The position numbers were made by a program, and so were the translations under genes. A stretch of 64,000 nt of DNA, from contig NZ_OU015584.1 of assembly GCF_907165195.1 (NCBI RefSeq), positions 3,854,978 to 3,918,977 on the forward strand. The letters are read 5' to 3'. Positions 6,729 through 63,926 of this stretch are shown here, piece after piece. Origin of the DNA: Parvicella tangerina (GTDB lineage: Bacteria; Bacteroidota; Bacteroidia; Flavobacteriales_D; Parvicellaceae). The notes under the pieces are model-generated. The model did no database searches. It was given only the letters and a program-made list of their open reading frames with translations, and was not told the DNA's origin. Position 1 is the stretch's first letter, and the number at the start of each line of letters is the position of its first letter.

Positions 6729-9700
6729 TTACCTACCTCCTCCAATTTTAGTTGGTGTAACACTCTTTGGCTTGGAAGGTGTTTTAGGTTTTACCGATTT
6801 TGGCGTGGTTGACTTACTACCCCCACTACCGGGTTTAATGGTATTCGTCTTACTTCCTCCTGAATCTGGCTTAATGGTATTCGTTTTGCTACCACCAGAG
6901 TTCGTATTTGTTTTACTTCCTCCCGAAGAGTTGGTTTTTCCACCAGTATTGGTTGGTTTGATGATCGTATTTCCTGGCTTAACTGTATTTGTAGGCTTTT
7001 TAACATCATTGATCTCCTTAAGTTTAGCATCAATTTCAGCTATTTTACTCTTTGCATAAGAGGAGTTAGGTTTCACCGACAATGCCTGCTTGTAATAAGT
7101 TTTAGCCGTAGAATACTTACCAGCTTTAAAGTAGAGGTCTGCTTTTTTAATTTTAGCATCGTATGCAGCATCAATTTCTTGTTGTTGCTTAATACTTTCA
7201 ATGGCAGTCATACGATTTCTTGGATGCTTCTCAGCTGGTTTTACCGAAGTTGCTTTTTGGTAGAAGTTATACGCTTCATCATACATCTTCTTGTTATAGT
7301 AGCTGTCCGCTTGCTGGATATAGCTATTATATTTTTCGGTCTTCTCCTGTTCCTCTTTCTGCTGTTGGCTTTGAGGATTCACCGTTCCCATTTGACTACC
7401 CGAATTACCGCCTTCATCGTCATTATTTCCAGAAGGATCATTTTCTCCGTTAGGTCCGCCTCCACCTTGACCAGGGTTACTAGAGTCTACACCATCCTGG
7501 TTATTTCCATGTCCATTGTTTCCGTTTCCATTTCCTTCGCCACCTTCGCCTTCACCACCAGAGCCTCCATTGGTATAGGTTCCATAACCTCCACCTGGGT
7601 TGATCGTTCCACTTCCACCATCATCGTTATTGTCATTCCCTTCATTATCATCAGAACCTCCAGAACACGTCACATAAACGGTTTGTGTATCTGTTCCATC
7701 AGGCGTAGTTGCCGTTACGGTAACCGTTACCACCTGACCTGCCTGAACAAAAGTTACAGGGATTGCAAACTGAACTACACTTGCTGAAAGTGCATTTGTT
7801 CTGACATTTGTAACTGTTATACCATCAACCGTGTAAGTGATCTCAGAAGCATTCGCATTACTCACTACCCCGGTCACATTAAAGCCAGTACAAGACGGAG
7901 CCGTAAATGGATTCGTACTTGTTGAACCAGTTACATTTCCTATACTCACTTCTGGTGGAGTAACCGGAATCGACACTTCAATAACCGTTTGATCCTGATC
8001 AGAACCAGCACTGTTGGTTCCACTAATCACAACGGTATGTGAGCCATTGTCAAGCGTAAGATTGCTGGTCAACACCTTAGAAGTATAACTATACGTAAAG
8101 TTCGTCACCTCTTGCCCATCTACCTTCATGGTAATTGCATTCTGACCAGACACGTTCAAGATATTCGCTTTCACCAAGACATTTGAGCTACTTGTTGTAT
8201 ATGGATCTTGTGCTGGTGTAGTGATCTCAACTTCTGGCTTAGGCAGTGGCTTATCAAAAACTACAGTAATATCTTCTGTCGTACTACCACAGTTGTTAGT
8301 TGCGGTAATCACAACCGGATTATTCCCTTCTAACAATGACGTTGTGAAGGACACTGTATTAGAAGCATTGTTAAAGCTATGTTGAACCGTACTTCCATTA
8401 ACTGTACAAACAATTTGATTTGCATTTGAAACCTCTGTCACTGTTGCAGATATTGTAACTCCTTTCGCTCTATTCGAGGTATAAGGGTTAGTCGTTGGGT
8501 TGGTAAACGTAATTACCGGCTCATTACACGCAACTGGTTTTGGCGTATAATTGATTGTTACTACCTTTTCTGTGGTCACATTACAATTATTTGTAGCACT
8601 CAGTGAGTAAGTTGAAGCTCCCTCATTAAGGTGTAGAAAGCATTCAAACAATCCTGTTGCTGGGTTATAATTGTAAGCAGAAGAAGGCGTTCCGTTCACT
8701 TTGAAAGTAATATTTGACGCATGCTCAATGGTTGCCACAATTGCTCCTTTACTATTTGAAGTGTTGAAGGTAATTGAAGCACTTGAACCTGATGTAGGCT
8801 GAGACAAGTTGATTACTGGATCAACACATTGTTCCTGTACATTAATCTCTGTTTCATCCATTGCCGATCCAGCAGGGTTAGTTGCAGTAACTTTCAAGGC
8901 GTGTGAGCCCATGCTAAGATTAAGCGGAACACTCACTTGCTTGGCACTTGCATTGTAACTAAAGTTTGCCACAGACTGTCCATCAAGATAAACTTGAATT
9001 TGACTCTTACCGTCCACTCCAGTAACGGAGGCTTTAGCTGTTAAATCACCATCAAAAGTCATATAGGGATTTACTGCTGGATTCGTAATGGTAACCGTTG
9101 GAGGAGCGACAGGTTTAGTATAGTTAATTACTACCGTACTGGTTGTCGTTCCACATTCGTTTCTAGCGGTAACCTCTACGTTATTCGTTCCAACTTTTAA
9201 TCCTCCTGCGATGGATAGGCTCCCTGTGTTCGCGTCAAAAACGAACTTCGTTGTTTGCCCATTCAATTTTACGTTCACTTTAGCCACATCAGTTACACCT
9301 AGCACCGAAGCACTTAAAGAAATGGCAGATGGACCCGTGAAGTCAAATGGCGTAGCGGATGGATAGGCCCAACTGATCACTGGGTCATCACATGGCTGCT
9401 CTTCTGGAGTATAGATATAAGTTACGCTCGCTATGGTAGTTCCACAGTTGTTGGTAGCTATGATCTGGTAGTTGTTTGCCCCCTCTTCCAAATGTAAGAA
9501 CGTTTCAAATGCTCCAGTTTTACTGTTATAGTTGTAACCAGGAGAAGAAACCCCATTGATCTTAAAGTCAAGAGAAGATGACCCTTCTATTTTTCCAACG
9601 ATGGCTCCCTTACTATTGGAAGTATTAATGGTCAGATTATTCCCTGAGTTACCACTTCCTGGAACCGTTTTCGTTTGAACTGTTGGCTGCGTTAAGTCAA

Positions 9701-15821: not shown

Positions 15822-16367
15822 TTAAGCTTTTATTAAAATTTTCATGCTAAAAAAGTGCTTCGCATCCGTATAGTTCTCAAACTTATAATCCAGAATACTG
15901 CCTGATTTAATCGCGATATCGATCATGCCTAAACCTGCTCCTCCTCTATCGCTTACCTCAGCGCTTTGAATTTGCTCTCGGTATTTCTTCTTTAAAGAAC
16001 TTGCGTCCATGGCGTTTATTTCATCCAACATTGACTGAAGCGTCTTTACTTCGTTATCCAAAATTGAGTTTCCAATGGCCACCATATACCCATCATCCTT
16101 CTTAGATAAGATGAAAATCCCCTCGTTATTCCCAGGGACTTCACTTTCTCTTTTGGCAGAATGTTTATGAATATTTTCCAGACATTCAACCAGAACTTTA
16201 TATGTCTTTTTAGCAGCACGCATATTGGTAGTACTCTTATGCAATTGCTTTTTCACATCAGAAAGCAAGGTGTTTACCATACCGTAATTAAATTCTCCGT
16301 GAAATGCGTATAGGACATTTTCACTAGTCATCGTATTGAAAATCGATATTGCGTCTGCACTGTTCAT
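15822..16367 (-). CDS. SiaB-family protein kinase
   Basis: A 181-residue GHKL-type kinase resembling the SiaB family (anti-sigma-like serine kinases). The N-box-like VECLENIHKHS and G-box-like DRGGAGLGMIDIA form the ATP pocket. It is expected to phosphorylate the SiaC-like protein encoded immediately downstream. The SiaA-like phosphatase gene lies 12 bases upstream on the same strand, so the trio is an operon. It has no transmembrane segment and is cytoplasmic. Confidence 0.85.
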   Translation of the reverse strand: MNSADAISIFNTMTSENVLYAFHGEFNYGMVNTLLSDVKKQLHKSTTNMRAAKKTYKVLVECLENIHKHSAKRESEVPGNNEGIFILSKKDDGYMVAIGNSILDNEVKTLQSMLDEINAMDASSLKKKYREQIQSAEVSDRGGAGLGMIDIAIKSGSILDYKFENYTDAKHFFSMKILIKA

Positions 16368-16379
16368 TAGGTTGCTAAT

Positions 16380-18731
16380 TTACGATTTAATTTTTAATCC
16401 CCAGACGAGAACATCGTCTGTTTGATCTTTGCCTATTTTCCATTTGCTGAAAACCTTGTTAAGGTGCTTTAGTTTCTCATCTTGAGGTAGTTGATTAACA
16501 GTTGAGATTAATTCTCTAAAGGGTGGGTAGTAGAACTTTTTTCCTTTGGTTCCTCCTTTTTGATCAGGGAAACCATCGCTAAAGAAAACGACTTCGGTTT
16601 CCTTATTTATCTCTAAAGTACTTTTTTTAATGGCTTCTGCCGATATCTGATTTTGACCAAGGTGAATGCGTGTAGGCTTCATTTCCTGAAGTACGCCCTC
16701 AGTCACCAGATAAATAGCGGAGTGTGCTCCGCTAAATTGAAGACTAAGGTTTTGGTTGTCTTTGGAAATTCTGACTAAGGCAATATCTAACCCGTCTTTT
16801 ATGTGTTCGGAGTCGTCTGTGCTTTGCCTAAGTTTCTTGATGAGCTGATTGTTCAATTCCGCTAAAATCTCATCAGTTTCCGTATAGCGGTGAACTGCAT
16901 TCTCCAGTAAATTATAGCAAATCACACTCATTAATGCGCCAGGCACTCCGTGTCCGGTACAGTCTGCTCCGGCCAAATAAATATGAGCATCTGTCTCTTC
17001 AATAAAGTAAAAGTCTCCACTTACTCCATCTTTTGGGAGGTACTGTAAATAATACTCCTCAACATACCGAGATATCTTTGAGTGGTGGGGTAAAACGGCT
17101 TCCTGAATTCTTTTTGCGTAGTCAATACTCTCTGATAATTGATCATACAAACCAGAGAGTTTATCTCGCTGTTTGGTTATTTGCTGTTCTGCAATAACCA
17201 ACTCTGTTACTTCAGTATCTATGAGTATAAAATTGCTGATATCTCCATTTTCATTTAGTCGGGGCGTTAGGGTTGATTTGATATTTCTTTGCCGGTTGTC
17301 TTTATCTGTGTTAGACAAATAAAACTGTACTGTTTTCTTATCTCGCTTAGCCAACTCTACTTTACTTTTGAACTCCTCCGTTGGTGGATTATCGAATATG
17401 TTCTCCCCGTATTTTTCTTTGAATTCCTCTAATCCCAAGCCGTACTTTCGCTTATAGCTTTCATTGATCCACTCAACATTCCCTTCTCCATCTGTAATGA
17501 TCACTGTGTTCTCAATTTCTTTGGCGACCATTCCAAGTTGGTCAAGTTTTTTATTGGCAATTTTTTGTCGTCTGAAAGCGAGTAATAACAGAAACCCAAA
17601 GAGACCGACAACAACAAACCCTCCAATCATCACATTTTGCTTGAAGGCCTCATTTGCCAACTTCTGTTTGCTCTCCGCCTCAGAACGAGCCATCTCCAGA
17701 TCCTTTAACTTCATTTCCTGATCTTTGTTGGCATTGTCAAATTTTGCCTGCAGGCTTGAGATATCCTTCGTTTTTAAGTTTTTGATCGTATCATGCAGTG
17801 ACGTATATAGCTTATATTCAATCAACGCAAGTGCGTATTTTTGCTGAATCTCATAAAGTTTCGAAAGATTAAAATGTGTCTTTGCTTTTGCGACAACTGA
17901 TTTTGATTCATTGGCTAAGGTTAAAGCGAGGCTAAAGCTTTTATTTGCCTGGTTCAGATCATTTTTCAGGATATAGGATTCCCCCAAGTGATTATATAAC
18001 TGAGCGAGCAACATTTTGTTTGATGGTGCGACAAGTTTAATCGCTTTGTTAAACTCAACCACCGCTTCATTAATCTGAGAGACATCGTTGAAAAATACGC
18101 CCAAAGAAATGTGTGCTTTTATAATAGCTGAAGTGTCTTCATGATATTTTGCAATCTTTATGGCCTCGTTATAATTCTCCTTTGCATGTAGTGTATCCCC
18201 ATTAGAAAAATAACACTCCCCTAATTCGTTTGCAACTGAGAAGGATAACTGATAAAATTGCATGTCTGGCAACGTGTTTTTCGCTTTTTCGAACCAGCTA
18301 ACTGCTTGATTGTATTCACCGAGTTCCTTAAGGCAGAGTCCTCCCTGGTAATAACTGTTTGCCAACTTAAATACCTCTCCAGCTTTTTCGTAAACTTTTA
18401 CTGACTCTTCGAAATCACTCAATCCACTTTTAAAAGAACCATTGATATAGCCAATCATACCAAGATCGAACCACACATCACCAATAATTACTGGATCTCC
18501 TAGGTCTTCTGCCAGGTCAAGCGCTTGTGTCGTCAAGGATAAAGAAGAATCTGGATTACTTGCCCAAGTAAACTTAGACAATTCAAGCATTGCTTGTACT
18601 CTGTTAGACTTAGGCACTTCGATCTTTCCGAGGGCTACTTTTCTTAACGAATCCAAATAATTTGTTGCCCAGAATGAACAAGGTACCAATAGCATGGAAG
18701 CGACAAGGAACTGTCTGAGGGTAAGGGTCAT
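16380..18731 (-). CDS. TPR - transmembrane - PAS - PP2C/SpoIIE phosphatase (SiaA-like)
   Basis: About 783 residues from the ATG at 18731, which gives a proper signal peptide (LRQFLVASMLLVPCSFWA); a TTG 15 bases upstream was rejected. In order: TPR repeats in the periplasm (about 60-330), a coiled coil, one membrane span (VMIGGFVVVGLFGFLLLLAF, about 370-392), a PAS domain (about 400-510, ENTVIITDGEGNVEWIN), a short coiled coil, and a PP2C/SpoIIE domain (about 560-780) with GDFYF and ADCTGHGVPGALMS metal-site motifs. It should dephosphorylate the SiaC-like partner in response to a periplasmic or PAS-sensed signal. The TPR sensor replaces the HAMP-type input of Pseudomonas SiaA. Confidence 0.9.
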   Translation of the reverse strand: MTLTLRQFLVASMLLVPCSFWATNYLDSLRKVALGKIEVPKSNRVQAMLELSKFTWASNPDSSLSLTTQALDLAEDLGDPVIIGDVWFDLGMIGYINGSFKSGLSDFEESVKVYEKAGEVFKLANSYYQGGLCLKELGEYNQAVSWFEKAKNTLPDMQFYQLSFSVANELGECYFSNGDTLHAKENYNEAIKIAKYHEDTSAIIKAHISLGVFFNDVSQINEAVVEFNKAIKLVAPSNKMLLAQLYNHLGESYILKNDLNQANKSFSLALTLANESKSVVAKAKTHFNLSKLYEIQQKYALALIEYKLYTSLHDTIKNLKTKDISSLQAKFDNANKDQEMKLKDLEMARSEAESKQKLANEAFKQNVMIGGFVVVGLFGFLLLLAFRRQKIANKKLDQLGMVAKEIENTVIITDGEGNVEWINESYKRKYGLGLEEFKEKYGENIFDNPPTEEFKSKVELAKRDKKTVQFYLSNTDKDNRQRNIKSTLTPRLNENGDISNFILIDTEVTELVIAEQQITKQRDKLSGLYDQLSESIDYAKRIQEAVLPHHSKISRYVEEYYLQYLPKDGVSGDFYFIEETDAHIYLAGADCTGHGVPGALMSVICYNLLENAVHRYTETDEILAELNNQLIKKLRQSTDDSEHIKDGLDIALVRISKDNQNLSLQFSGAHSAIYLVTEGVLQEMKPTRIHLGQNQISAEAIKKSTLEINKETEVVFFSDGFPDQKGGTKGKKFYYPPFRELISTVNQLPQDEKLKHLNKVFSKWKIGKDQTDDVLVWGLKIKS

Positions 18732-58223: not shown

Positions 58224-58770
58224 ATTAACGATTTATGGACGAACGATTAAACGATTTGTTGATGGGGGACGTTGGATGGTGGACTTGTGATTTGGGAGTT
58301 GTAATTTACCCCTCCGCCTGGCGGCACCTCCCCTCGAAGGGGAGGATTCTTTGATATTTGATGGTGGATGGTGGATATTGGACGATAGACGTTGGACGCT
58401 GGATGATGGATTAACGAATTAAGGATGAACGATTAAACGATTTGTTGATGGTGGACGCTAGATGTTAGACGCTGGATTTTGGATGGTGGACTTGTGATTT
58501 GGGTGTTGTAGTTTACCCCTCCGCCTGGCGGCACCTCCCCTCGAAGGGGAGGATTCTTTGATATTTGATGGTGGATGGTGGATATTGGACGATAGACGTT
58601 GGACGCTGGATGATGGATTAACGAATTAAGGATGAACGATTAAACGATTTGTTGATGGTGGACGCTAGATGTTAGACGCTGGATTTTGGATGGTGGACTT
58701 GTGATTTGGGTGTTGTAGTGTACCCCTCCGCCTAGCGGCACCTCCCCTCGAAGGGGAGGGCTATTTTGAA
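58224..58770. repeat. Tandem repeat array 1 (207-bp units, three REP-like elements)
   Basis: Three copies of the sequence ACCCCTCCGCC..GGGGAGG start at 58308, 58515 and 58722, exactly 207 bases apart. The intervening DNA is near-identical (TGATGGTGGATATTGG, ATGGATTAACGAATTAAGG). Each carries a double palindrome: CCGCC-T-GGCGG and CCTCCCCT-CGA-AGGGGAGG. The last copy is slightly different (CCTAGCGG). No ORF of note runs through. The regularity indicates recent unequal duplication. Confidence 0.88.
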
Positions 58771-59308
58771 TTTGGATAGTTGATATGGCGGATGAAGGAT
58801 TAGACGATTAATGACTGAACGACAAATAACGTGGGATTTAGAGTTGGATGATGTTCTTGATACGATTTACGCTTCTTGCAGGCGCAAAAACCACCTATCT
58901 ACTATGCCTACGGCATGAAGGCGACAGGCAGGCGCGAACTGACCGCGTTGGTTGATTGGGGAGTTGGGGGCGAAGGATTAATGATTGGAGAAGCTTTTGA
59001 TAGGATGCTCATTGTGAATGGTATTACTGGAATAGCTTAATGCTGAGTTCTCGTGTATTTCTCGATTGTCTTGTGAGTGTCTGGAGGTCGTTTAATGGTG
59101 GTCTTATGACCGAAGGCTGTGGGGATGCTGCCATGTGGCTTCGCGTGGCCTGATAGCTAGCGGGGTGTGAGCAGGAAATTAGCGGGATAATAGCAGGAAG
59201 ACAGCAGGATAATGATTGCTGAAATTTAGAATTTTTAACAACCTGCAAAGAGCGTTTGGCATGGTTCTGCCTTGATAACTAGGTATAAACAATAAAAGTA
59301 CCAAAGTT
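58771..59308. other. Non-coding spacer between repeat array 1 and the inserted gene
   Basis: About 540 bases without a credible gene. It holds a small hairpin (ATGCC-TAC-GGCAT near 58909) with a direct GCAGGCGC repeat on either side, and a few short open frames whose codon use resembles shadow frames. No recognisable promoter or RNA was found. Confidence 0.45.
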
Positions 59309-60014: not shown

Positions 60015-60430
60015 GGTTTATAGTTATGACGTTGGACGCTAGATGTTAGACGCTGGATGATGGACAAACGATTTAAGGACGAACGATTAAACGATTTGTT
60101 GATGGTGGATGGTGGACTTGTGATTTGGGAGTTGTAGTGTACCCCTCCGCCTGGCGGCACCTCCCCTCGAAGGGGAGGATTCTTTGATATTTGATGATGG
60201 ATTAACGAATTAAGGATGAACGATTTAACGATTTGTTGATGGTGGATGGTGGATATTGGACGATAGACGTTGGACGCTGGATGATGGATTAACGATTTAT
60301 GGACGAACGATTAAACGATTTGTTGATGGGGGACGTTGGATGGTGGGATTGTGATTTGGGAGTTGTAGTGTACCCCTCCGCCTGGCGGCACCTCCCCTCG
60401 AAGGGGAGGATTCTTTGATATTTGATGGTG
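60015..60430. repeat. Repeat array 2 (two REP-like elements)
   Basis: Two further copies of the same unit, with REP-like palindromes starting at 60141 and 60372 (231 bases apart), in the same orientation as array 1. The last unit is closely similar to the first unit of array 1, as if the array had been split by the gene between them or the whole segment duplicated. Confidence 0.82.
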
Positions 60431-60516
60431 GATGTTTGGTGATTATAAAGTGTTTATGGTTGGTTCGAAAGAATTATCGGAGCTATTTGAAAAGTATTGA
60501 TCTGTTGGTTTTGCAT

Positions 60517-60906
60517 TTAACCGTTTTCTGGGAGTTTGCCCATGAATTCGGGTTGGTAATCGATGAGAATGTATTTTATCTTTCCGTTTTCTGGGAGTTC
60601 GAGAAAGCCGACATCATAACAGAAATGGTAGGTTTGACCTCTTTGGTTGCTCCAGGTGTGGGTATAGAATTTGGGGTTGAAACCTGCCTGAAGTAATTTT
60701 TCTTTTCTAATGGTTGATTTTCCGGCTTGATTGAAGTGATGAAGCAACCGTCTGTTTCGTTTTAATTGTTTGTCTATTTTGGCAAAATTGGATGGGTCTT
60801 TTTGTTTATTTTTTTGATAGTGGTAGTTTGATTTGCAGTAATCACTACAGTAAATTTTGTCTATTCGCCCTGAAATAGGTTCTTTGCAGGCTAAACACAG
60901 TCTCAT
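60517..60906 (-). CDS. Small protein with N-terminal Cys4 zinc-finger-like motif
   Basis: A 129-residue protein. The N-terminus has CLACKEPISG and IYCSDYCKSNYHY, a CxxC-CxxxC pattern that should bind one zinc, followed by a basic helix (KQLKRNRRLLHHF) and a C-terminal domain with KLLQAGFNPKFYTHTW and TYHFCYDVGFLEL. Similar proteins recur in Bacteroidota, but their role is unknown to me. The C-terminus has a short duplicated LPENGK segment arising from a 16-base direct repeat (60521 and 60585). The gene lies in an otherwise repetitive, gene-poor zone. Confidence 0.75.
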   Translation of the reverse strand: MRLCLACKEPISGRIDKIYCSDYCKSNYHYQKNKQKDPSNFAKIDKQLKRNRRLLHHFNQAGKSTIRKEKLLQAGFNPKFYTHTWSNQRGQTYHFCYDVGFLELPENGKIKYILIDYQPEFMGKLPENG

Positions 60907-62554: not shown

Positions 62555-62603
62555 AATGTATATAACAACCACTAGTGGCTGTTATACATTCGTTGGCAAA
62601 CAT
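62555..62603. other. Recombination-site-like hairpin downstream of the recombinase (attI/attC candidate)
   Basis: AATGTA, a two-base bulge, TAACAACCAC / GTGG.TGTTA and TACATT fold into a nearly perfect hairpin (62555-62590), followed at once by CGTTGGCAAACAT. The 3' end GTTGGCAAA (62592-62600) looks like an integron-type core site. It lies eight bases after the recombinase stop, so part could also serve as terminator. No left core (NNCCAAC) is present, consistent with attI or a degenerate attC. Confidence 0.65.
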
Positions 62604-62628
62604 AAAAATGAAAATATTAAAATAAATT

Positions 62629-63174
62629 ATGAAAAAAACATTATTATTAACATCAGTTCTAACAGGATTAACATTTTCTGCTATTTCACAGAACTCTAAT
62701 TGCGAAGATTCTTTAAATATCTTGCAAAAAAAAATAGACTACTTAGAACAAAGAAGTCCTGAATATAAAGCAACTTATTTAGCTAAAACAAGCACATATG
62801 AATTACAATTTTTAGACGCAAGCTTTGAGAGTTCAGGAAAATATAAAGTGAACCTTTTGTTAAAAAATACAGGCGATGATAAAGTCATCATCATTATACC
62901 CGAAGATATAGACCTAATAGACGAAAAAGGAAATGGTTATAATTGTACTGATATTAAATTAGGTAACTCAGAAATAAAATACAGTAGTAGCTGGGGTAAG
63001 TGTGCTACAAACACTATTTATACCAACGTACCTACTAAATTATCTTTGACATTTGACTCGGCTAATGACATTGACTTTATCGCTATTTGTGTTATTAAAT
63101 TAGTAATGGACAAACAAGCTTATAATGCACCAAAGCTGACACTTAAATTAAATAATATTCAGACTAAAAAATAA
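62629..63174 (+). CDS. Secreted cassette-borne protein (paralogue 1)
   Basis: A 181-residue protein with a signal peptide (KTLLLTSVLTGLTFSAIS), a short coiled coil (SLNILQKKIDYLEQRS) and a beta-sandwich-like domain (about 60-180). That domain shares FLDASFESSGKYKVNLLLKN, CTDIKLGNSEIKY and WGKCATNTIYTNVPTKLSL with the next gene. Two Cys (NCTDI-like and GKCAT) are conserved between the two. Function unknown. Placed within 40 bases of the recombination-like site, it is the first gene of the cassette. Confidence 0.78.
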   Translation: MKKTLLLTSVLTGLTFSAISQNSNCEDSLNILQKKIDYLEQRSPEYKATYLAKTSTYELQFLDASFESSGKYKVNLLLKNTGDDKVIIIIPEDIDLIDEKGNGYNCTDIKLGNSEIKYSSSWGKCATNTIYTNVPTKLSLTFDSANDIDFIAICVIKLVMDKQAYNAPKLTLKLNNIQTKK

Positions 63175-63187
63175 TCAATATACTAAA

Positions 63188-63649
63188 ATGAAACAATTTA
63201 TAATACTCACAATTATTGCCATCTTTTTCGTTTCTTGTTCAACAGTAAAAGAAGTCAGCTCAACAACAAATTTTGAAGTGACTTTTGTTAGTGCAAAAGC
63301 AGAATCTTCTGGAAAATATAGAGTTGATTTATTAATAAAAAACCTAGGCGGTGACAAATTAATCTTTATACAATCTGAAAAAGTAACATTAATAGATAAG
63401 GAAGGTGTAAACTATACCTGTTCGGACATAGTGTTAGGTAACTCAAAACTGAAATATGATAGTTATTGGGGGAAATGTATAACAAACACTCTTTATTCAA
63501 ACGTACCGACAAAACTATCTCTTTACTTCGACACGGCAGAAAACATAGAATACATCTCAACTTGTGCTATTGAATTAATTCTTGAAAAAAAATCTTTAGA
63601 TGCTCCTAAAATCACTTTAAAATTAAACGACATTTCAACTGAGAAATAA
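63188..63649 (+). CDS. Cassette-borne lipoprotein (paralogue 2)
   Basis: A 153-residue lipoprotein with lipobox FVSC at residue 16. The mature domain is a clear paralogue of the preceding gene: AKAESSGKYRVDLLIKN, CSDIVLGNSKLKY and WGKCITNTLYSNVPTKLSL. It starts 13 bases after the first gene's stop without an att site between, so both genes form one cassette. Its shared Cys pair may form a disulfide. Similar tandem pairs suggest a membrane-anchored and a soluble version of one protein. Confidence 0.8.
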   Translation: MKQFIILTIIAIFFVSCSTVKEVSSTTNFEVTFVSAKAESSGKYRVDLLIKNLGGDKLIFIQSEKVTLIDKEGVNYTCSDIVLGNSKLKYDSYWGKCITNTLYSNVPTKLSLYFDTAENIEYISTCAIELILEKKSLDAPKITLKLNDISTEK

Positions 63650-63655
63650 TAACGA

Positions 63656-63855
63656 TTTGCCAACAAGGGCTATAGTTAATGTGGGTTTTTGTAGTAAATT
63701 AAAGGTTTAGAGCAATAAATTAACACCGCTAAATCTTTGATTTAGCTTTTAAAAGGAAATTAAGTTAAAAACAAAATACAAAGATTTAGCTACGTGCGGA
63801 ATTGATAACTATCGCATTTCAATCCCACACTAACCATAGCCAGGTCGTTGGGCAC
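63656..63855. other. attC-like recombination site (200-nt imperfect palindrome)
   Basis: Outer cores TTTGCCAAC (63656-63664) and GTTGGGCAC (63847-63855), the latter matching the integron GTTRRRY core. Inside, GGCTATAGTTAATGTGGG (63668-63685) pairs with CCCACACTAACCATAGCC (63824-63841) at 16 of 18 positions. The unpaired spacers between core and stem arms are 3 and 5 bases. The 138-base apical part holds GCTAAATC-TTT-GATTTAGC (63728-63746) and the related CAAAGATTTAGC (63779-63790). R-L-loop-L-R order, mismatched arms and length recall large attC sites such as those of Vibrio. Confidence 0.65.
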
Positions 63856-63926
63856 AATGTGAACAAAAACTGTAAAACTCATTGAAAATTGTTGAAACCG
63901 AAATCTAAAATTTTTAAATTTACGTT

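Follow-up and report, generated by a model that had tools for sequence, protein, structure and literature searches.

The long hairpin close to the right-hand end of the window (the whole stretch analyzed, 64,000 nucleotides, positions 3854978-3918977 of the single-contig 3.98-Mb genome of Parvicella tangerina) raises the question of whether it belongs to an integron and, if so, which enzyme would use it. Within the Bacteroidetes, Salinibacter ruber was previously reported as the only carrier of a complete integron; Chlorobi and Ignavibacteriae were named besides (PMC9024848). The earlier note had read the hairpin as an attC-like site with a nested hairpin in its apical loop, and every element it named was found in place when the sequence was re-read (Table 1). 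The spacers AAG and AGGTC are unpaired, and the L'' and L' arms are mismatched at 2 positions, which read as A.C on the top strand and as G.T wobbles on the bottom strand. The bottom strand folds at -32.1 kcal/mol (z = -5.07) and the top strand at -29.3 kcal/mol (z = -3.69), with 0/200 shuffles as stable in either case. A 22-base L'/R' pattern has a single match in the window, where 0 would be expected. The apical loop (63686-63823) is indeed 138 nt long, but it is not unusual as the note had supposed: 8 of the 21 sites in the array measure 182 to 191 nt and share the same inner architecture.

Table 1. Coordinates of the integrase, the attI-like site, the first cassettes and the parts of attC-like site 1 in the window, and of plasmid loci with resistance cassettes or the tet(X5)-adjacent recombinase
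Feature	Position	Strand	Remarks
Tyrosine recombinase, 381 aa	61402..62547	+	Pfam PF00589 (2e-36), PF13495
attI-like site: 34-nt palindrome ATGTATATAACAACCACTAGTGGCTGTTATACAT, TC, GTT	62556..62594	+	Palindrome and GTT also in relatives
Cassette 1, 1255 bp	62592..63846	+	Start GTTGGCAAA, R'' TTTGCCAAC, 9/9 complementary
attC-like site 1	63656..63855	+	First array site; 145 bases left to window end
R'' arm TTTGCCAAC (outer core)	63656..63664	+	Reverse complement of cassette 1's own start
L'' arm GGCTATAGTTAATGTGGG (inner arm of the earlier note)	63668..63685	+	Arm alignment, RNAalifold
Inner arm P3 GCTAAATC	63728..63735	+	Pairs with P2 or with P1; both covary, 20 sites
Inner arm P2 GATTTAGC	63739..63746	+	Nested short perfect hairpin with P3
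Inner arm P1 CAAAGATTTAGC (third arm)	63779..63790	+	Long-range inner stem with P3
L' arm CCCACACTAACCATAGCC	63824..63841	+	Opposite L'' arm, two mismatched positions
R' arm GTTGGGCAC (outer core)	63847..63855	+	GTT crossover triplet and cassette 2 start
Cassette 2, cut by window end	63847..64000	+	D12 adenine methyltransferase, ATG 63927, PF02086 (6e-32)
Plasmid loci with resistance cassettes or the tet(X5)-adjacent recombinase	L213:5296-5371; L216:8001-9330; L216:2316-3316; L220:3874-11847

When the array was read beyond the window end, 21 attC-like sites in the same direction were found over 26 kb (genome 3,918,639 to 3,943,466), most of them past the window and with sizes of about 60, 123, and 188 nt. 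The first stem search overlooked three of these 21, which were then picked out by eye; the register of the site with AAC at 3,935,962 was shifted by three bases. In integrons, the sequence to the right of the crossover is already part of the following cassette, so that the R'' of a site is expected to be complementary to the beginning of the cassette that it closes. Here, R'' was the reverse complement of its own cassette start over 8 to 10 consecutive nt in 21/21 cassettes; the mean run was 9.5 nt, compared with 3.8 nt for non-adjacent pairs, and 0/3000 permutations reached this value. For instance, the R' arm of site 1, GTTGGGCAC, opens cassette 2 and matches in reverse complement the R'' with which site 2 begins, TGTGCCCAAC. 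The cassette starts have in common only GTT/AAC and a purine at position 4, the remaining bases being cassette specific, and the pattern GTTRRRY fits 2 of the 22 starts in this array.

The array begins 45 nt 3' of the integrase gene, with the attI crossover triplet GTT at 62592-62594; among relatives, palindrome and GTT follow the integrase by 41 to 181 nt. Genome-wide, the core of the palindrome is limited to 3 places, and at one of these it is accompanied by a copy of an array cassette. Cassette 1 contains two small, mutually similar ORFs (62629-63174 and 63188-63649) without a Pfam match, and cassette 2 continues past the window with a NOV_C-domain protein (PF13020, 7e-18). Clusters of sites of the same type also lie far from the integrase, at about 0.173-0.189, 1.33-1.34, 1.52, 1.72, 1.87-1.88, 2.13, and 2.58 Mb of the genome, and two of them adjoin further copies of the attI palindrome (genome 189245 and 2125575). 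At another locus (L020:1147-7260; genome 183146-189260), an attI-like palindrome and a 460-bp cassette precede a 5.6-kb cassette that codes for an Hsp70-like protein together with two partner ORFs.

To examine covariation, 20 sites of the ~188-nt class from this genome and other Bacteroidota were aligned along their length, and RNAalifold recovered the outer and the inner stem unaided. Double changes were found in 11/16 pairs of the outer stem (94% paired), in 4/8 pairs of the inner stem P1:P3 (96% paired), and in 4/8 pairs of the competing hairpin P2:P3 (89% paired). Taken jointly, the outer and inner stems pair in 94.6% of alignment cells, with 15/24 pairs doubly changed and slid controls at 35 to 47%; over all stems, slid controls mostly gave 25 to 49%. 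These counts are of non-independent events, the aligned sites sharing ancestry. Both alternative pairings of the loop covary, and the arms P1, P2, and P3 are therefore maintained together. Probably, the inner stem and the competing hairpin bend the long loop back on itself, which would shorten its effective length and bring the far-apart outer arms into contact. A covariance model of this class gave 158.6 bits (E = 1e-30) for site 1, which belongs to the training set; about 17 full-length matches above 85 bits elsewhere in the genome lie outside that set. The model finds ~42 distinct sites in the genome, some within the array and others in the remote clusters, and has matches in 44 of 119 Bacteroidia genomes.

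Strand choice was analyzed in 74 sites from 28 loci, with the L arms scored symmetrically for both strands; this scoring replaced an earlier one that favored bottom-strand wobbles. G.T on the bottom strand with A.C on the top was found at 161 positions of the L arms and the opposite at 22. Site by site, 65 lean to the bottom strand and 1 to the top. R-arm complementarity extends over ~14 nt, and position 11, which was not used in site detection, carries a wobble of the same sense in 57/74 sites. By folding only, the bottom strand was the more stable in 64 of 73 sites and the top strand in 9, in agreement with the single-strand preference that the attC-like reading had implied. True IntI loci of the phylum served as a null and gave 31 versus 29 wobbles, i.e., no bias. 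The L arms align without gaps over ~18 nt, as read by a finder that allowed no gaps, so that extrahelical bases would escape it. This final finder combined wobble-tolerant arms with the chain test. An exact-arm finder was dropped because it found almost no sites, as was a gapped comparison with true IntI loci of the phylum: only 1/10 of these loci yielded convincing attC sites under a strict classical search, and most of the 43 "classical" sites in the comparison are therefore chance.

The integrase consists of an N-terminal module of ~85 aa, a SAM-like core-binding domain, and a catalytic domain. Its reading frame is open, and its catalytic residues (R237, the K262/K265 region, H326, R329, H352, and Y361) are invariant among relatives. 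It scores 217.5 bits with NF040815, just under the cut-off of 220, and 204.6 bits with the integron integrase family TIGR02249, under the cut-off of 265 and with the match split in two pieces. The ~42-residue IntI-specific insertion (I2) is absent from the integrase and from 80/80 relatives. The interval from the KDR motif to the HxLRH motif is 57 to 58 residues in these proteins (one row truncated), compared with 99 residues in 7/7 true IntI of the same phylum, and residues 181-244 of IntI4 (2A3V) are without a counterpart. An AF2 model (pLDDT 82) matched XerA 4A8E with Z 24.2 and IntI4 2A3V with Z 20.1 (rmsd 3.3). By phmmer, the integrase resembles archaeal XerA more than IntI. Both trees place its catalytic domain with IntI and separate it from genomic Xer: on all columns, IntI falls inside the I2-less family, and in the tree of fewer rows without the insertion columns, the I2-less family is the sister group (83/71). 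Some relatives contain the N-terminal module two or three times, and some that have arrays lack it (e.g., L100). HARP (PF07443) matches it weakly, with E = 0.00045 in 1/27 N-termini and 0.003 in L028, and the top Foldseek hits were XPB and SMARCAL1 HARP 4O66 (prob 0.72 to 0.87, E 0.12 to 0.24). A profile of the domain gave chance matches only among PDB sequences, and a HARP-like nature of the module is offered here as a lead only.

Relatives of the integrase at E <= 1e-60 are present in 118 of 246 Bacteroidia genomes. True IntI over the cut-off is present in 57 of 198 genomes of the phylum, only one of them from the Bacteroidia; no IntI was found in this genome by TIGR02249. Among relatives whose contigs extend 2 kb or more downstream, 24/43 have chain-linked sites within 6 kb downstream, and the chain-based finder detected no linked site in the other 19. 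Site detection itself uses the chain, and the independent evidence lies in the controls, with linked sites upstream in 1/37 relatives and 0 in shuffled sequences. The contig ends within 1.5 kb downstream in 35/80 relatives and upstream in 2, a pattern that repeat arrays would cause. No linked sites were found on the Persicobacter megaplasmid (L215).

Several cassettes bear signs of relocation. The 460-bp cassette is present three times with 99.6 to 100% identity, twice in the array (positions 11 and 20) and once at 188.8 kb, where it adjoins a second copy of the attI palindrome, and cassettes 4 and 5 are identical neighbors. Cassette 9 carries erm(F) (NF012223, 599 bits; cut-off, 575). Together with it, the array holds a class D beta-lactamase, over its family cut-off, and a mer operon of the order ArsR-MerTP-MerA; the three lie at L016:10416-11216 (-), 7643-8479, and 15849-18512. 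Homology of the erm(F) cassette to six other records is bounded by a GTT on either side, with unrelated flanks beyond; two of these records (L219 and L221) share one flank, and two (L216 and L220) have copies interrupted or shortened inside. It begins at query 58-61 (GTT at 61) and ends at 1357-1358, the third base of the next GTT. The plasmid hosts are Flagellimonas, Myroides, Parabacteroides, Riemerella, Sphingobacterium, and an uncultured host. Lone erm(F) cassettes on small plasmids (L219:3001-4288 and L221:1522-2818) follow the same non-attI sequence, AAATAT|GTT, possibly as the result of insertion at a secondary site.

Further resistance genes of Bacteroidota plasmids, namely, tet(X2), OXA-347, estT, ere(D), and an OXA gene, are cassettes like erm(F), and on the Sphingobacterium plasmid pWB8, tet(X2) and blaOXA-347 form complete chain-linked cassettes. 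A recombinase adjacent to tet(X5) on Acinetobacter plasmids is a member of the I2-less family, with 54.6% identity; it has been called tpnF or xerD (PMC7722449, PMC7494873). Between it and tet(X5) lie an attI-like palindrome and GTTATGTGCC, an order of recombinase, palindrome, GTTATGTGCC, and tet(X) that resembles the locus described here; the attC of this tet(X5) copy was not found at that locus. Previously, the unit was described as ISCR2-tpnF-tet(X3)-hp-hp-ISCR2, with the recombinase treated as an ISCR2 passenger (PMC7722449), and integrons and attC are unmentioned in PMC7494873 and PMC7758954.

These patterns suggest how the system would work. The bottom strand of a cassette would fold into a hairpin whose R and L arms are the predicted binding sites of the integrase, the R arms consisting of GTT/AAC and 6 to 11 cassette-specific bases. 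At the GTT, the integrase would then join the hairpin either to another attC or to attI, the double-stranded palindrome that closely follows the integrase gene; insertion, excision, and shuffling of cassettes would result. Strand choice would be made mainly through the fixed G.T wobbles, which become A.C mismatches on the wrong strand, aided by the unequal spacers (about 1 to 3 versus 4 to 6 nt). In this way, wobbles and spacers may replace the bulged extrahelical bases that are read by the I2 domain of IntI. From sequence patterns, we infer catalysis, bottom-strand use, crossover inside the GTT, and a role of the inner hairpin.

Site 1 is very probably the first attC of a chromosomal integron-type system run by an I2-less integrase, and array context, covariation, and strand bias all uphold the attC-like reading, the last two being features whose absence the earlier note had named as evidence against it. 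Points against an integron are that the integrase falls under the TIGR02249 cut-off and lacks a domain thought essential for attC use, that R' departs from GTTRRRY, that 19/43 relatives are unlinked, and that some family members lie near IS91. Alternatively, the sites could be inert relics, hairpins of an old system kept as repeats or terminators between genes. Their stability after stop codons and the clusters far from the integrase would suit such relics. However, a terminator needs no match between R'' and its own cassette start, which is present at every site; near-identical cassettes at three places and across hosts indicate recent movement, and the integrase has kept its open frame and catalytic residues. 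Inert relics are thus a very improbable explanation.

Equally, the recombinase might be a Xer/dif or IS91-associated enzyme unrelated to the array, with the cassettes moved by another enzyme. The phmmer result and the IS91 transposases beside some relatives would fit this, whereas the position of the array 45 nt after the gene, the recurrence of this layout in 24/43 relatives with almost none upstream, the lack of IntI by TIGR02249 in this genome, and the grouping of the catalytic domain with IntI in both trees leave hardly any likelihood to it. Wider-family members beside IS91-type transposases may serve transposons or another role; a more distant recombinase of this kind lies beside an IS91 transposase near an OXA-347/erm(F) array (L218:2719-4697). 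For the nested hairpin, the earlier note had also suggested that it may regulate recombination or act as a terminator or RNA. A riboswitch, attenuator, or sRNA that is no part of a recombination site would account for inner stems that covary and are kept over genera. Yet the hairpin travels only with attC, it is missing from the 123-nt and 60-nt array sites and so is not tied to genes, and no Rfam family covers the sites, the sole Rfam match in 40 kb of array being a group II intron. A separate functional RNA is unlikely on these grounds.

On all testable sequence criteria, the array is integron-like. As in classical integrons, the cassettes run one way, the sites are inverted repeats with R and L boxes and a GTT/AAC triplet, the start is complementary to R'', attI lies beside the integrase, the bottom strand is preferred, and resistance cassettes are carried. 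Unlike classical integrons, the enzyme lacks the insertion, GTTRRRY fits only 4/74 starts overall, R complementarity reaches ~14 nt with the fixed wobble at position 11, the integrase gene is codirectional with the cassettes and bears the additional N-terminal module, and the sites fall into the three size classes of ~60, ~123, and ~188 nt. Since the integrase lacks the insertion that defines IntI and scores under the family cut-off, and since the R' boxes depart from the consensus, the system lies outside the IntI class and is best filed as an I2-less integron. Inverted intI genes are known in some soil and freshwater IntI; they share the codirectional orientation but contain the additional domain by that study's definition (PMC8352920). 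XerA, XerC, and XerD resemble the integrase in catalytic core fold, size, and lack of I2, whereas here a cassette array with single-strand-type sites is present instead of dif. The relatives carry the NCBI family name "site-specific tyrosine recombinase/integron integrase," so a link to integrons had already been suspected. No description of these cassettes was found in the open-access literature, and an earlier account in other sources is possible.

The I2 domain has been regarded as the adaptation of integrases to single-stranded attC, one not identified in other proteins (PMC4792948), and integron function has been said to require it (PMC8138268). A cassette system that works in the absence of I2 would, if true, mean that the domain is not essential and would make the origin of integrons testable. 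Tentatively, I2-less integrons of the Bacteroidia type could be an older form, or an independent branch, that reads hairpins by wobbles and possibly with a HARP-like module, IntI having arisen within it by gain of I2; we consider this possible but doubtful. Surveys select integrons by the I2 domain, and the system described here would explain the apparent near-absence of integrons in Bacteroidetes despite relatives in about half of the sampled Bacteroidia. It would also offer a concrete capture route for the Bacteroidota resistance genes erm(F), tet(X), OXA-347, ere(D), and estT, whose exact mobile units are predicted, an aid to surveillance.

Two other kinds of element were observed around the arrays. 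A group II intron with a reverse transcriptase lies directly after the last cassette (L017:7005-8616 [-]; also L019:2800-3440), and such introns recur near arrays of this type, which is reminiscent of attC-targeting introns. Upstream of the integrase, direct repeats of ~207 nt (58267-58774 and 60100-60537) flank an ORF of 234 aa, with an identity of 98% in tandem and 61 to 66% elsewhere.
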